Assembly: GCA_947623745.1 (NCBI GenBank) | Contig: CANQHN010000010.1 | Location: 17,576 to 81,575 of the forward strand | Direction of reading: 5' to 3' | Origin: an uncultured Oscillospiraceae bacterium | Lineage (GTDB): Bacteria > Bacillota > Clostridia > Oscillospirales > Oscillospiraceae | Length of the DNA: 64,000 bases | Shown here: one piece after another, positions 12,335 through 20,096 of the stretch | Position numbering within the stretch: position 1 is the stretch's first letter | How the letters are laid out: each line of letters begins with the position of its first letter | Position numbers and translations under genes: made by a program | Notes under the pieces: generated by a model | The model's database searches: none | What the model was told of the DNA's origin: nothing | Seen by the model: only the letters and a program-made list of their open reading frames with translations

Positions 12335-12369
12335 AAATCATACTTATAAAGGGGATTGTCCCCTGTGAA

Positions 12370-12623
12370 CTGAGCGATGATTGGACAAGTAGGCAGGTCG
12401 CCGACGTACAGAGAGGGAGCGGGTGCTGCAAGCTCCTCCGAAGCGGCCAGGGCTGAACATCACCCATGAGCTGTCCCGCTGAACCGGCCAGGGCCCAAGT
12501 AGGCAGGAACGGTCCCCCCGCCGTTACCGGGGCTGAAAGCGCGCGGGCGGCCTGCCCGCGAATTTAGGTGGTACCACGGAGCAGCGGCTTCGTCCTAGAG
12601 ACAGGACGAGGCCTTTATTTTTA
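12370..12623 (+). promoter_or_regulatory. T-box leader (tRNA-sensing riboswitch) of the ilv operon, probable Ile (AUC) specifier
   Basis: AATTTAGGTGGTACCACGG antiterminator bulge sequence, AGAGAG-like element, GAAC-ATC-ACC specifier context (ATC at 12459-12461), terminator tcgtcct-agagac-aggacga + T-rich. Confidence 0.9.
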
Positions 12624-12659: not shown

Positions 12660-14288
12660 ATGACAGGAGCACAGGCCCTGATCCAAAGCCTGCTGTGCGA
12701 GCAGGTGGACCACATCTTCGGCTACGCCGGGGCGACGATATGCCCGGCGGTGGACGCGCTGAAGGAGCACCCGGAGATCGGCTACACCCTGGTGCGCACC
12801 GAGCAGAATGCCGGCCACATGGCCTCGGGCTACGCCCGCATCTCCGGCAAGGTGGGGGTGTGCATGGTGACCAGCGGCCCGGGGGCCACCAACCTCATCA
12901 CCGGCATCGCCACCGCCTTCATGGACTCCATCCCCATGGTGGCCATCACCGGCCAGGTGCCCAGCCACCTGCTGGGCCGGGATATCTTCCAGGAGGTGGA
13001 CATCACTGGCGCTGTGGCCCCCTTCTCCAAGCACAGCTACCTGGTCAAGGACGCCAACGACATCCCCCGCGTCGTGAAGGAGTCCTTCCACATCGCCGCC
13101 ACCGGGCGGCCCGGGCCGGTGCTCATCGACGTGCCCATCGACGTGCAAAACCAGGAGCTCAAGCGCTTTGAGTACCCGGAGACGGTGAACATCCGGGGCT
13201 ACAAGCCCAGCGTGAAGGGCAACGAGCTGCAGATCAAGCGGGTCATCGAGGCCATCTCCAACGCCAAACAGCCCCTCATCTGCGCCGGCGGCGGCGTGTG
13301 GCTGGCCGGGGCCCAGGCGGAGCTGCTGGAGCTGGCCGAGCGGTGCGCCATCCCCGTGGTCAAGACCATGATGGGCATCTCCCTCATGCCCACCGACCAC
13401 CCCCTGAACATGGGCATGATCGGCGCCCACGGCAACGCCTGCGCCAACAAGGCCCTGGTCAAGTCCGACCTGCTCATCATGGTGGGCGCCCGGGCGGCCG
13501 ACCGCGCCATCATCAACCCTGCCGAGATCCAGCGCCGGATGCCCATGATCCACATCGACGTGGACCCGGCGGAGATCGGCAAGAACATGCAGGCCCAGAT
13601 CCCCCTGGTGGGCAACGTGAAGGTCATCCTGCGCCAGATGCTGGACAAGGACCCGCCGGTGGCCGACTCCGCCGAGTGGCTGGACTTTTTGGGGGACTAC
13701 CGCCGGGCCGAGCTGAACCGCCAGTTCCCCCGCCGGGAGGGCTATGTATTCCCCGGCACCGTCCTGCGCAGGCTGGGCCGGAAGCTGGACGAGGACGCCA
13801 TCGTCAGCGTGGACGTGGGCCAGAACCAGATCTTCACCTGCAAATACCTGCCTCAGAAGCACGGACGCCTGCTCACCAGCGGCGGCCTGGGCACCATGGG
13901 ATACGCCCTGCCCGCCGCCATTGGCGCCAAGGTGGCCGCCCCGGACAAGCAGAACATCGTGGTCTGCGGCGACGGGTCCTTCCAGATGGACATGAACGAG
14001 CTGGCCGCTGTGAGGCACGCCGGCATGGACATCAAGATCGTGCTGTTCCGCAACCGGGTGCTGGGCCTGGTCAACCAGATCCAGCGCGCCGCCCCCTACC
14101 ACGGCCCCTTCGGGGTGGACCTGGACGGCTCCCCCGACTTCGCCGCCATCGCCGCCGCCTACGGCATCCCCAGCCTGACGGCCGACGACGAGGACAGCCT
14201 GGACGGTGTGCTGGACCAGTTCCTGGCGCATGAGGGCAGCTGCCTGCTCATCTGCGAGGTACATCCCGACGTGAACACCACGGATTAA
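12660..14288 (+). CDS. ilvB: Acetolactate synthase large-subunit paralog (first copy, divergent active site)
   Basis: TPP enzyme: RTEQNAGHMASGYARISGKVG, GDGSFQMDMNELAA; lacks the usual GMVRQWQ (has LGLVNQIQ). Confidence 0.88.
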   Translation: MTGAQALIQSLLCEQVDHIFGYAGATICPAVDALKEHPEIGYTLVRTEQNAGHMASGYARISGKVGVCMVTSGPGATNLITGIATAFMDSIPMVAITGQVPSHLLGRDIFQEVDITGAVAPFSKHSYLVKDANDIPRVVKESFHIAATGRPGPVLIDVPIDVQNQELKRFEYPETVNIRGYKPSVKGNELQIKRVIEAISNAKQPLICAGGGVWLAGAQAELLELAERCAIPVVKTMMGISLMPTDHPLNMGMIGAHGNACANKALVKSDLLIMVGARAADRAIINPAEIQRRMPMIHIDVDPAEIGKNMQAQIPLVGNVKVILRQMLDKDPPVADSAEWLDFLGDYRRAELNRQFPRREGYVFPGTVLRRLGRKLDEDAIVSVDVGQNQIFTCKYLPQKHGRLLTSGGLGTMGYALPAAIGAKVAAPDKQNIVVCGDGSFQMDMNELAAVRHAGMDIKIVLFRNRVLGLVNQIQRAAPYHGPFGVDLDGSPDFAAIAAAYGIPSLTADDEDSLDGVLDQFLAHEGSCLLICEVHPDVNTTD

Positions 14289-14300
14289 GGAGGGGGAGAG

Positions 14301-14786
14301 ATGAAACAGACCATTTCCGTCCTGGTGGAGAACCGGGCCGGCGTGCTCAACCGCATCACCAACCTGTTCTCTCGCCGGGCCTTCAACATCGAGTCCCTGG
14401 CCGTGGGCACCACCGACGACCCCACCATCTCCCGCATCACCATCATCGTGGACAGCGGCAACAGCGTGGTGGAGCAGGTGGAGAAGCAGCTCAACAAGCT
14501 GGTGGATGTCATCAAGGTCCGCACCCTGGACGAGAACAGCCTGATCGGCCGGGAGCTGGTGCTCATCAAGGTCAACGCCACCCCCAAGACCCGGCAGGAC
14601 ATCATGACCATCTGCGAGCTGATGGGGGCCAGGGTGGCCGATATCTCCCCCACCTCCCTCACCCTGGAGCTGTCCGACACCCCCGACCGCATCGAGGTGT
14701 TCGAGGACATGCTGCGCCCCTTCTCCATCAAGGCCCTGGCGAGGACGGGCGTCATTGCCCTGCAAAAGGGGAGCGGAAATATTTAA
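14301..14786 (+). CDS. ilvN: Acetolactate synthase small subunit (first copy)
   Basis: KQTISVLVENRAGVLNRITNLFSRRAFNIESLAVGTTDDPTISRITI: ACT domain. Confidence 0.92.
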   Translation: MKQTISVLVENRAGVLNRITNLFSRRAFNIESLAVGTTDDPTISRITIIVDSGNSVVEQVEKQLNKLVDVIKVRTLDENSLIGRELVLIKVNATPKTRQDIMTICELMGARVADISPTSLTLELSDTPDRIEVFEDMLRPFSIKALARTGVIALQKGSGNI

Positions 14787-15084
14787 TCAAACAAGTGGCG
14801 GAGCCACTTGTTTGAAAAGACTGCGGCCCGCGGCAGCGCGCGTCGTCGCAAGCTCTATATCCTTCGCTTCCGCCTGCGGCGAAAGCTCACTCATTACGCT
14901 GCTCCTCCTTTCCCAGCCGAACCCGCTGCGCTGGGCTTCGGCCGGGACCCATTTCGCTCGCACGTTTGCGGGCCGAGAGGTATTTTTCCCGACGTGCGCG
15001 CCACCGGGAAAAATAAATGAAAATTCTTCGCGCCTGCGGGCGCGAACTCTGCGAGGCTTTGCCCAGAAACTGGAGTTGAAAACA
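14787..15084. repeat. Hairpin-dense intergenic element between ilvN(1) and ilvB(2), candidate dispersed repeat/MITE-like element
   Basis: 13-bp perfect stem tcaaacaagtggc-gga-gccacttgtttga directly after the ilvN stop; 11-bp perfect arms tatttttcccg-N13-cgggaaaaata at 14981-15015; cgcgcc-tgcg-ggcgcg; composition differs from flanking genes. Confidence 0.5.
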
Positions 15085-16788
15085 ATGAAGATTCGAGCAA
15101 CCCAGGCCATCATGGAGTGCCTGCTGGAGCAGGAGGTGGACACCGTTTTCGGCTATCCCGGCGGTTCCATCCTGAACGTCTATGATGAGCTGTACAACTA
15201 CCGGGACAAGATCACCCACATCCTGACCGCCCACGAGCAGGGGGCGGCCCACGCCGCCGACGGCTACGCCCGGTCCACCGGCAAGGTGGGGGTGTGCTTC
15301 GCCACCAGCGGCCCCGGGGCCACCAACCTGACCACCGGCATCGCTACCGCCTACATGGACTCCTCCCCCGTGGTCTTTCTGACCTGCAACGTGGCCGAGC
15401 CCTATCTGGGCAAGGACTCCTTCCAGGAGGTGGACATCACCGGCATCGCCATGCCCATCACCAAGGCCACCTACCTGGTGCGGGACGCCCAGACCATCCC
15501 CGACGTGATGCGGGAGGCCTTCGCCGTGGCCGCCACCGGCCGGCCGGGCCCCGTTCTGATCGACTTCCTGAAAAACGTCACCGCCCCCAGCGTGGAGATC
15601 GACTACGAGTTCGTCCCCTGGACCCAGAACCGCCGCCTGGGCAGCATCAAGGCCCTGGCCGACGCCCACGAGCTCAAGGCCCCCGAGCCCAATTCCGACG
15701 ACATCGACATCCTGGCCGACATGATCGCCCAGTCGGAGAAGCCCCTGCTCATCTGCGGCGGCGGCGTGGTCCGCGCCCGGGCGGACAAGGAGTTCCGGGA
15801 GCTGGCCGAGAAGCTGGACGCCCCGGTGGCCATCACCGTCATGGGCGGCGGCGGGTTCCCCGGCGGACACCCCCTCACCGCCGGCATGATCGGGATGCAC
15901 GGCTCCCAGGCCAGCAATGTGGCCTGCAACGAGTGTGACCTGCTCATCGCCGTGGGCTGCCGGTTCTCCGACCGGGTGGCCCTCCAGCCCGAGACTTTCG
16001 CCAGCCAGGCCAAGATCGTCCAGATCGACATCGACCGCTCCGAGATCGACAAGAACGTGCTCACCGACCACCACATCGTGGGCAACGCCAAGCGGGTGCT
16101 GGAGCTGCTCAACCAGCGGCTGGGCCAGTACAGCCACCCGGAGTGGAAGGAGCACATCCTGCCCCTGCGCCAGCCCTCCATCCCCCGGGTCAGCGAGCAG
16201 CTCACCCCCAAGCAGGTGCTGGAGACCATCCGCCGCCTGGCCCCCCAGGACACCATCGTGGCCACCGACGTGGGCCAGCACCAGATGTGGTCCATCCAGC
16301 ATTTCCACTTCGACTACCCCGGTCAGCTTCTGACCTCCGGCGGCTTCGGCACCATGGGCTTCGGCCTGGGCGCCGCCATCGGGGCCAAGATGGGCAACCC
16401 GGACAAGGTGGTGGTCCACACCACCGGCGACGGCTGCTTCCGCATGAACTGCAACGAGCTGGCCACCGTGGAGCACTATAAGCTGCCCATCATCACCGTG
16501 GTGTTCAACAACGGCACCCTGGGCATGGTCCGCCAGTGGCAGCACCTGATCTATCACGAGCGCTACTCCGAGACCACCCTGGACCGGGGCCCCGACTTCG
16601 TCAAGCTGGCCGAGGCTTACGGCCTCAAGGGCTTCCGGGTGACCACCCAGGCGGAGATGGAGAAGGCCTTCCGGGAGGCACTCTCCGCCGGCTGTGGCTG
16701 CGTCATCGACTGTATGCTGGATATGGACGAGATGGTCCGGCCCATGGTGGCCGGCGGCGCCCACATCACCGACTTCCTGCTGCACTAA
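15085..16788 (+). CDS. ilvB: Acetolactate synthase large subunit (second copy, canonical)
   Basis: MKIRATQAIMECLLEQEVDTVFGYPGGSILNVYDELY; NNGTLGMVRQWQ; start placed at 15085, the long N-terminal extension in the ORF list rejected. Confidence 0.93.
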   Translation: MKIRATQAIMECLLEQEVDTVFGYPGGSILNVYDELYNYRDKITHILTAHEQGAAHAADGYARSTGKVGVCFATSGPGATNLTTGIATAYMDSSPVVFLTCNVAEPYLGKDSFQEVDITGIAMPITKATYLVRDAQTIPDVMREAFAVAATGRPGPVLIDFLKNVTAPSVEIDYEFVPWTQNRRLGSIKALADAHELKAPEPNSDDIDILADMIAQSEKPLLICGGGVVRARADKEFRELAEKLDAPVAITVMGGGGFPGGHPLTAGMIGMHGSQASNVACNECDLLIAVGCRFSDRVALQPETFASQAKIVQIDIDRSEIDKNVLTDHHIVGNAKRVLELLNQRLGQYSHPEWKEHILPLRQPSIPRVSEQLTPKQVLETIRRLAPQDTIVATDVGQHQMWSIQHFHFDYPGQLLTSGGFGTMGFGLGAAIGAKMGNPDKVVVHTTGDGCFRMNCNELATVEHYKLPIITVVFNNGTLGMVRQWQHLIYHERYSETTLDRGPDFVKLAEAYGLKGFRVTTQAEMEKAFREALSAGCGCVIDCMLDMDEMVRPMVAGGAHITDFLLH

Positions 16789-16801
16789 GGGGGTGGACGG
16801 C

Positions 16802-17368
16802 GTGAAGAAAGAGTTTGATATGACCAGGAAGGCCTACACCCTGTCCATCCTGGTGCGGGACGTCCCCGGCGTTTTGAGCCAGGTGGCCCGGCTGTTCTCC
16901 CGGAAGGGCTACAACATCGAGTCCATCGTCTCCGGTGAGACCGACCGGCCCGGCGTCACCCGGATCACCATCGTGGTCCACGGGGACGAGGTGATGATCT
17001 CCCAGCTGGCCGCCCAGTGCCGCAAGCTCATCCCCGTGCTGGCGGTGAAGCTGCTGGACGAGAAGAGCTCCATCCAGCGGGAGTTTGCCCTCATCAAGGT
17101 GCAGGCGGCCGACCGAAACGCCCGGGACGAGGTCATCCAGATGGCCAACATCTTCCGGGCCAAGATCATCGACGTCAGCCACGAGACCCTCACCGTGGCC
17201 ATCTTCGGGGAGCGGGAAAAGACCGACGCCCTGACCCGGCTGCTGGAGGACTACGGCGTGCTGGAGATTGCAAAGACGGGTACTATCGCCATCGAAAGAG
17301 GACGTAGCACTATATATGACGACAATAAAATCAAGGAGGAATACAACTATGGCAAAAATGTACTATGA
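16802..17368 (+). CDS. ilvN: Acetolactate synthase small subunit (second copy)
   Basis: [57 protein letters not shown] start; 3' end overlaps ilvC by 20 nt. Confidence 0.9.
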
Positions 17369-18371
17369 GAAGGACTGCGACATCAACTACCTCAACGGCA
17401 AGAAGATCGCGATCATCGGCTACGGCTCCCAGGGTCACGCCCACGCGCTGAACCTGAAGGACTCCGGCTGCGACGTGTGCGTGGGCCTGCGTCCCGGCTC
17501 CAAGAACTGGGCCAACGCAGAGAAGGCCGGCCTGAAGGTCATGACCGTGCCCGAGGCCGCCAAGTGGGGCGACATCGTGATGATGCTCATCAACGACGAG
17601 GTCCAGGCCGACGTGTACAAGAAGGACATCGCCCCCAACCTGGAGGAGGGCAACGCCCTGGCCTTCGCCCACGGCTTCAACATCCGCTATCAGCAGATCG
17701 TGCCCCCCAAGGGCGTGGACGTGTTCATGGCCGCCCCCAAGGGTCCCGGCCACACCGTCCGCTCCACCTATGTCAACGGCAAGGGCGTGCCCTGCCTGGT
17801 GGCCGTGGAGCAGAACGCCACCGGCGACGCCTATAAGATCGCCCTGGCCTATATCGCCGGCATCGGCGGCGCCCGCGCCGGCGTGATGGAGACCACCTTC
17901 CACGACGAGACCGAGACCGACCTGTTCGGCGAGCAGACCGTGCTGTGCGGCGGCGTGGTGGATCTGATGCAGTGCGGCTTCGAGACCCTGGTGGAGGCCG
18001 GCTACGCCCCCGAGAACGCCTACTTCGAGTGCATCCACGAGATGAAGCTGATCGTTGACCTGATCAACAAGGGCGGCATCGCGGCCATGAACTACTCCAT
18101 CTCCGATACCGCTGAGTTCGGCGAGTACGTCTCCGGCCCCCGCGTCCTGCCTCACGACGAGATCAAGGCCCACATGAAGGCTGTCCTCAAGGACATCCAG
18201 GACGGCACCTTCGCCGGCCGCTGGATCGCCGAGAACAAGAGCAACGGCCGCACCTTCTTCAACTCCAAGCGCGCCCAGCTCAAGAAGCACCAGATGGAGA
18301 TCGTGGGCGAGGAGCTGCGCAAGAACATGATCTGGGGCGGCGACACCGACCTGGACACCGCGTCCAACTAA
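17349..18371 (+). CDS. ilvC: Ketol-acid reductoisomerase
   Basis: [52 protein letters not shown]. Confidence 0.95.
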
Positions 18372-18434
18372 ACCGGCAAAAGGCCCCCGGCTCATGCCGG
18401 GGGCTTTCCCCCATTTTTGACAGGAGGCTATGCT

Positions 18435-20096
18435 ATGCGCTCTGACGTTGTGAAAAAAGGTATCCCCGCCGCCCCCAACCGCTCCCTGCTGTACGCCCTG
18501 GGCTACACCAAGGAGGAGCTGGAGCGCCCCCTCATCGGCGTGGTGTGCTCCTACAATGAGATCGTCCCCGGCCATATGAACCTGGACAAGATCGCCGAGG
18601 CGGTCAAGGCCGGCGTCCGGGCCGCCGGCGGCACCCCCGTGGAGTTCCCCGCCATCGCCGTGTGTGACGGCATCGCCATGGGCCACGTGGGCATGAAGTA
18701 CTCCCTGGTCACCCGGGACCTGATCGCCGACTCCACCGAGGCCATGGCCATCGCCCACCAGTTCGACGGCCTGGTGATGATCCCCAACTGCGACAAGAAC
18801 GTCCCCGGCCTGCTCATGGCCGCCGCCCGGGTGAATGTGCCCACCATCTTCGTCTCCGGCGGCCCCATGCTGGCCGGCACCCTGAACGACGGCCGGCGCA
18901 CCTGCCTGTCCCACATGTTCGAGGCCGTGGGCGCCTACTACGCCGGCAAGCTGGACGAGCAGGGCGTGGAGGAGTATGAGGAGAACGCCTGCCCCACCTG
19001 CGGCTCCTGCTCCGGCATGTACACCGCCAACTCCATGAACTGTCTCACCGAGGCCATCGGCATGGCCCTGCGGGGCAACGGCACCATCCCCGCCGTGTGG
19101 TCCGCCCGGCTCCGCCTGGCCAAGCACGCGGGCATGAAGATCATGGAGCTGGTGGAGAAGGACATCCGGCCCCGGGACATCATGACCGAGGCGGCCTTCC
19201 ACAATGCCGAGACGGTGGACATGGCCCTGGGCTGCTCCACCAATACCATGCTCCACCTGCCCGCCATCGCCCACGAGTGCGGCGTGGAGATCTCCTTCGA
19301 CATGGCCAACGAGATCTCCGCCAAGACCCCCAACCTGTGCCACCTGGCCCCGGCGGGCTTCACCTACATGGAGGACCTGGAGCGGGCCGGCGGCGTGTAC
19401 GCCGTCATGAAGGAGCTGACCAAGAAGGGCCTGCTGGACACCTCCCTCATCACCTGCACCGGAAAGACCATCGCCGAGAACCTGGAGGGCGTGGTGAACC
19501 GCGACCCCGAGCTCATCCGGCCCATCGACAACCCCTTCAGCCCCACCGGCGGCATCGCCGTGCTCAAGGGCAACCTGGCCCCCGACGGCTGCGTGGTCAA
19601 GCAGTCCGCTGTGGCCCCCGAGATGATGGTCCACGAGGGCCCCGCCCGGGTGTTCAACTCCGAGGAGGAGGCCATCGAGGCCATCTACGCCGGGAAGATC
19701 GTCTCCGGCGACGTGGTGGTCATCCGCTATGAGGGCCCCAAGGGCGGCCCCGGTATGCGGGAGATGCTCAACCCCACCTCTGCCATCGCGGGCATGGGTC
19801 TGGACAAGGAGGTGGCCCTCATCACCGACGGCCGCTTCTCCGGCGCCACCCGGGGAGCGTCCATCGGCCACGTGAGCCCCGAGGCCGCCTCCGGCGGCCC
19901 CATCGGCCTGGTGGAGGAGGGCGATATCATCGCCATCGACATCCCCGGCAAGTCCATCCAGCTGAAGGTGGACGAGGCCGTCCTGGCCGCCCGGAAGGCC
20001 GCCTGGGTGTGCCCCGAGCCCAAGATCAAGACCGGCTACCTGGCCCGGTACGCCAAGCTGGTGTCCTCCGCCGACAAGGGCGCCATCCTGGGATAA
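18435..20096 (+). CDS. ilvD: Dihydroxy-acid dehydratase
   Basis: [54 protein letters not shown]. Confidence 0.95.

Follow-up and report, generated by a model that had tools for sequence, protein, structure and literature searches.

One T-box-led operon in the window (the whole 64,000-nucleotide stretch of DNA analyzed here) carries ilvBN twice, as two complete acetolactate synthase pairs, together with ilvC and ilvD (12660-20096), and the question raised by this locus is what the hairpin-dense sequence between the two pairs represents. The original prediction, made from the letters alone, offered two answers: a dispersed non-autonomous element, or an RNA regulating the distal genes. As it had described, the stretch (14787-15084) begins just past the ilvN1 stop codon (14784-14786) and ends shortly before the ilvB2 coding region, whose ATG starts at 15085. 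The three hairpins were also found where they had been placed, i.e. a perfect 13-bp stem with the loop GGA (14787-14799/14803-14815), a perfect 11-bp stem with a loop of 13 nt (14981-14991/15005-15015) and a GC hairpin (15027-15034/15039-15046). Predicted folding of the + strand was stronger than that of 200/200 dinucleotide shuffles (z -4.2) and folding of the - strand stronger than that of 198/200 (z -2.8). We found no terminator-like site on the + strand within the stretch, and 14787-15084 gave no Rfam match at either gathering or relaxed thresholds. A reading frame was said to stay open across the stretch and in frame with ilvB2. Such a frame exists (ORF 14755-16788), but it begins inside ilvN1 and out of the ilvN1 frame; the given frame stays open in about 4% of shuffled versions of the stretch, and in G019 and G060, two genomes of the genus with the same element at the same junction, the corresponding frame stops 12 nt before ilvB2. 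The open frame is a coincidence.

A search of the same genome had been proposed as the way to recognize a repeat, and it showed that the sequence is far from single-copy. With 14787-15084 as query, 75 candidate places, full and partial, were found in the host genome, the long matches having 81-94% identity. About 30 of the host sequences are copies of one unit, here called element A, and relatives occur in many Oscillospiraceae/Flavonifractor genomes. The comparison set comprised 92 copies in which both ends could be located, taken from the host, from its genus and from named genomes of Oscillospiraceae, including Flavonifractor plautii, Papillibacter, and Dysosmobacter and Oscillibacter MAGs. 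The unit is about 180-200 bp long (about 180-340 bp over all copies) and outside the host genome its length is nearly constant, most copies measuring about 198-200 bp. Nesting of a second repeat, B, accounts for the greater length of the ilv copy. A is bounded by the inverted repeats GAGACTGTCRAAAAAG / CAGCTTGTCRAAAAAG and its parts follow in the order left palindrome TGTCAAAAAAGGCC-N-GGCCTTTTTTGACA, central hairpin, TATTTTTCCCG..CGGGAAAAATA, TTCGCGCC..GGCGCGAA and right end GAGGCTTTTTCGACAAGCTG. No conserved ORF was found in A, which is non-coding and has no transposase gene. The corresponding parts of the ilv copy are given in Table 1.

Table 1. Features of the ilv copy of element A and its surroundings (positions in the window; a dot means no strand assigned).
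Feature	Positions	Strand	Basis or remark
T-box leader	12368..12600	+	Upstream of ilvB1; the sole Rfam match in the window
Element A, ilv copy of the probable IS1182-type MITE, with nested repeat B	14784..15072	+	blastn against own genome; end-anchored 92-copy collection
Left-end palindrome, terminal repeat then its own reverse complement, TCAAACAAGTGGC-GGA-GCCACTTGTTTGA	14787..14815	.	Counterpart elsewhere TGTCAAAAAAGGCC-N-GGCCTTTTTTGACA
Left arm CGGCCCGC of long-range pair	14824..14831	.	Closes the central hairpin of A; encloses B in the ilv copy
Nested repeat B, on the - strand reads AGGAGGAGCAGCG..ATGAGTGAGCTTTCGCC..GGCGGAAGCGAAGGATATAGAGCTTGCGACGACG	14839..14955	-	Approximate bounds, judged by how long A copies differ from short ones
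Right arm GCGGGCCG of central pair	14968..14975	.	Pair listing
Palindrome TATTTTTCCCG-N13-CGGGAAAAATA	14981..15015	.	Arms differ between species, complementarity kept
Palindrome TTCGCGCC-TGCG-GGCGCGAA	15027..15046	.	Covaries too
Right terminal repeat, eroded in the ilv copy: CGAGGCTTTGCCCAGAAACTG; elsewhere CGAGGCTTTTTCGACAAGCTG	15052..15072	.	Copy comparison
Host flank with presumed ilvB2 ribosome-binding site GGAGTTGAAAACA	15072..15084	+	GGAGTTGAA common to G019 and G060

Most copies of A have the same GC-rich hairpin on either side. A direct repeat (mean 28.9 bp) flanked 66 of the 90 copies with usable flanks, the cut-off lying above the 99% level of shuffled pairings, and in 59 of the 66 the duplicated flank folded into a hairpin whose stability exceeded that of 99% of nearby windows. 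Immediately outside the hairpins, the sequence was A-rich on the left in 40/66 and T-rich on the right in 41/66, against a background of about 9%, as is expected of intrinsic terminators. By a crude gene call (n = 75) the copies lay between convergent genes in 38 cases, between tandem genes in 19 and 13 (the two orientations) and between divergent genes in 3, one of which is the ilv copy, miscalled by the gene picker; the presence of both tandem orientations fits insertion at the DNA level. Since the whole hairpin is copied to both sides, A would spread without abolishing transcription stops. In two copies, L007 and L036, the loops of the two flanking hairpins are reverse complements of each other, exactly in L007 and approximately in L036, as would follow from a flip of the duplicated palindrome. 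No terminator site was seen both unoccupied in one strain and occupied in another; around one terminator copy (L025) the flanking genes were not syntenic in relatives, and cross-comparison of the flanks of the fetched loci gave no orthologous pairs.

The ends of A point to a particular transposon family. In a sister species (G006) there is a complete IS, about 1.59 kb long, whose ends read CAGC[CT]TGTCGAAAAA, and its transposase belongs to the IS1182 family (NF033551, 389 bits; Pfam DDE_Tnp_1_6). Around 17 of 24 distinct copies of this IS a whole hairpin of 18-36 bp was duplicated, exactly or nearly so and with no offset on either side; each copy was counted once (the symmetric ends list most of them twice) and two below the conservative threshold of the script are included. 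Matching flanking hairpins were absent from the remaining 7/24 IS copies, as they were from 24/90 copies of A, which we assume to reflect recombination or decay. A second IS1182 element, in G010, with the ends CAGCTTGTCAAAAAA, had hairpin duplications of 34-37 bp at the three copies with both ends resolved, and an IS1182 element in G096 had one copy with a 25-bp duplication. The right end of A (CAGCTTGTCAAAAAAG / CAGCTTGTCAAAAAAGCCTCGCAGAG), although eroded in the ilv copy, matches the IS1182 ends of G006 and G010, and in the IS, as in A, a palindrome adjoins the inner side of the terminal repeat. The choice of target, palindromes and terminators, is also the same. Beyond terminal repeat, end-hairpin layout and target, A and the IS have little in common, so that the comparison establishes shared ends and target and not a derivation of A by simple internal deletion. 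We looked for an IS1182 IS with matching ends in the host assembly, a 76-contig draft, by pattern, Pfam family and protein, and found none; as only one distant, broken IS1182 relative is present there (contig C53), the partner is absent, lost or unassembled in the host. In most of the G010 copies (L115, L124, L133) the transposase frame is interrupted by one or more in-frame stops, in many cases by just one TGA, and a long copy without any lies at G010:C1:2452807-2454153. Another small element with similar ends and TIR palindrome (L069/L080, G021 contig C50) apparently has a GTATAC target duplication in place of a terminator.

Taken together, A is short, multicopy and without a transposase gene, it shares its terminal inverted repeats with an IS and it is bordered by target site duplications, all of which are traits of a MITE. 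Judged from these comparisons, the stretch is very probably an old copy of an IS1182-family MITE (A) with B nested in it, where both the IS and A lie in duplicated terminator hairpins and A would be mobilized in trans. The first of the two original readings, the dispersed non-autonomous element, is thereby upheld: copies are many, their ends are inverted repeats, their targets are duplicated and sister species carry a related IS1182 IS that is autonomous. Its label "REP/MITE-like" was half right: MITE is apt and REP is not, because the ends and the partner belong to a DDE transposon with long target duplications.

For the two right-hand palindromes of A, in 57 aligned copies, double compensatory changes were seen at 13/17 pairs and 96% of the cells were paired, vs 76% after shuffling, with 166 double-change cells vs 2 one-sided (G-U) cells. 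RNAalifold resolved these two right-hand hairpins and no others, since the left half of A aligns poorly between subfamilies. Structured RNAs normally evolve through G-U intermediates, and the scarcity of such intermediates here leads us to read the palindromes as features of the DNA. The flanking hairpins, presumed RNA terminators, are also poor in G-T pairs, at 1.6% compared with 0.4% in the left-end hairpin, which has to be kept in mind in this reading. We infer that the perfect internal palindromes would be maintained at the DNA level, either because transposition selects for them or through hairpin-templated correction. That the covarying stems, taken by themselves, arose from repeated correction by intrastrand template switching and not from selection for structure is rather unlikely in our view; double changes nearly without one-sided intermediates would be its outcome, and the difference in G-T pairs (0.4% vs 1.6%) agrees with it, but the loops between the arms are conserved too, which correction alone would not require.

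Could the same stems instead belong to a regulatory RNA (riboswitch, attenuator or 5' leader) with ilvB2 and the distal ilv genes under its control, as the second of the original readings held? Strong folding, covarying stems, a position between two AHAS gene pairs and the recurrence of A in G019 and G060 at this point of the operon speak for it. The copies, however, are dispersed, mostly 3' of unrelated genes and next to terminators in both orientations; G-U intermediates are almost absent; no Rfam family matches; the stretch has no + strand terminator; and the operon is already T-box-led. A is also missing in species with the same operon, so its position is not conserved (3/30 genomes), and we regard regulation of the distal genes by such an RNA as quite improbable. 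Copies at unrelated genes without orientation bias equally weaken the idea of a domesticated module, in which the host would have selected A as a structured 3'-UTR or insulator between two terminators and A would not be selfish. The near-constant length, the palindrome layout conserved across species and the terminators retained at both edges could be understood in that way, but an IS with its own transposase inserts in the same pattern and relatives lack A at this place in the operon, making host selection a very unlikely origin.

High copy number and an extragenic, palindromic nature also call to mind REP/BIME-type repeats spread by a Y1 (HUH) REP transposase acting on single-stranded hairpins. 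Single-strand HUH transposition makes no long target duplications, unlike what surrounds A. The ends of A, moreover, are those of an IS1182 DDE element that is bordered by duplications of the same kind, and a unit of about 200 bp with inverted-repeat ends and duplications of about 29 bp differs from REP units of 20-40 bp; this explanation can be given hardly any credence. A resembles REP/BIME with their REP-associated tyrosine transposases (PMC2817692) in being extragenic, palindromic and of high copy, but differs in its IS1182-type ends, in transposase class and in its target duplication, which is not expected of REP/BIME. The pneumococcal BOX, RUP and SPRITE repeats (PMC3049150, PMC10969869) are likewise small structured intergenic repeats, some terminator-like and sometimes nested; by description A is set apart, as SPRITE itself is terminator-like whereas A sits between two host terminators and has no + strand terminator.

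IS1182-family MITEs are known from Methanosarcina acetivorans, where the ISMac2-associated ones are likewise small and non-coding, share their terminal inverted repeats with an IS1182 IS and are listed with direct repeats of 4 or 0 bp (PMC3852290). A differs from these in the covarying palindromes inside it and in its duplication of entire terminator hairpins, about 20-40 bp long. IS1272 and TnSha1, IS1182-family elements of Staphylococcus, also use inverted-repeat targets, often intrinsic terminators, and follow structure over sequence; they delete or replace the target stem-loop and give no target duplication (PMC5678879, PMC4923244), unlike most copies of A and the IS, where the whole hairpin stands on both sides. 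Stem-loop duplication was drawn only as a hypothetical 'pathway b' in the 2017 IS1272 paper (PMC5678879), and a survey found IS1182 over-represented between convergent genes (PMC9208149). Among the freely readable papers that our literature search covered, there was no account of A or of hairpin duplication by IS1182 elements.

A likely pathway is that an IS1182-type transposase acts in trans on A and cuts each target strand at an outer foot of the terminator palindrome, whereupon gap repair would duplicate the entire hairpin and leave one terminator at each edge of the inserted element. We tentatively suggest, at somewhat less than even odds, that this is structure-guided DDE transposition, natural and in high copy: the transposase would read the terminator as a cruciform and join both ends at its outer feet, so that the full terminator is duplicated and termination kept on both sides, and the covarying palindromes of the MITE would be DNA signals of the same transposase. 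Across a whole clade of gut bacteria, an IS1182-family IS and a MITE family duplicate hairpins, whereas the staphylococcal cases studied destroy them, and there are many natural examples of an outcome so far drawn only as a hypothetical pathway. This suggests a transposon route for spreading through gene ends at little cost, and offers a tractable system for how a DDE transposase recognizes a structured target. It is also a warning that intergenic sequence of Oscillospiraceae that is dense in hairpins and covaries may belong to a mobile element and not to a riboswitch.

The ilv copy of A is an ordinary member of this newly delimited family of MITEs, but its location is unusual. The junction between the two ilvBN pairs holds many different spacers across the genus. 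A was present there in 3/30 genus genomes examined, G019 and G060 among them; in five species ilvN1 and ilvB2 overlap by 4 bp, and others have an unrelated spacer there or, in the stretch fetched, no ilvN1 immediately before ilvB2. The copies in G019 and G060 are clearly orthologous. The host copy has the flank GGAGTTGAA in common with both and the unusual left arm TCAAACAAGTG in common with G019; overall it is nearer to other host copies than to either. On these sequence similarities one ancient insertion is likely behind all three. Comparison of orthologous operons, which had been proposed for presence or absence and target-site duplications, thus did find species with and without A at this junction, but no target duplication was detected around the ilv copy. 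The copy is atypical in having neither terminator nor target duplication and in its eroded right end; its left tip is degenerate and runs into the ilvN1 stop codon, and its right tip is the CTG at 15070-15072. The copy is very probably old and has since lost its target duplication and right repeat. Because it contains no + strand terminator, transcription should continue through it into ilvB2, and the copy is probably only a transcribed spacer, ilvB2 using the GGAG site just outside A.

Repeat B, about 115 bp, is found in the central hairpin of the 'long' A copies, the ilv copy included, and elsewhere in the host genome without A. Besides 14839-14955 of the window, B was noted in L027-L030, L032-L035, L040, L041 and L016:2970-3084. 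It has a conserved core, GGAGGAGCAGCG..GAGCTTTCGCC..GGCGGAAGCGAAGGATA..GGAGCTTGCGACGACG, with a variable hairpin before the core, and belongs to no Rfam family; viral contigs, searched for the pattern of B, did not contain it. In L034 (about 1501-1613, host contig C28), B lies just past the apparent 3' end of pgk and is flanked by a repeat of about 30 bp, CCCGGCGTTGCCTGCCTG.TGGACAAGTAA, that covers the last codons, and therefore B too may duplicate its target. One free copy of B overlaps the 3' part of a sub-threshold match to the xerDC RNA (L032:1546-1673, - strand, 53.9 bits, E 5e-7), and on host contig C7 (80672-81056) four B units of about 104 bp each stand in tandem.
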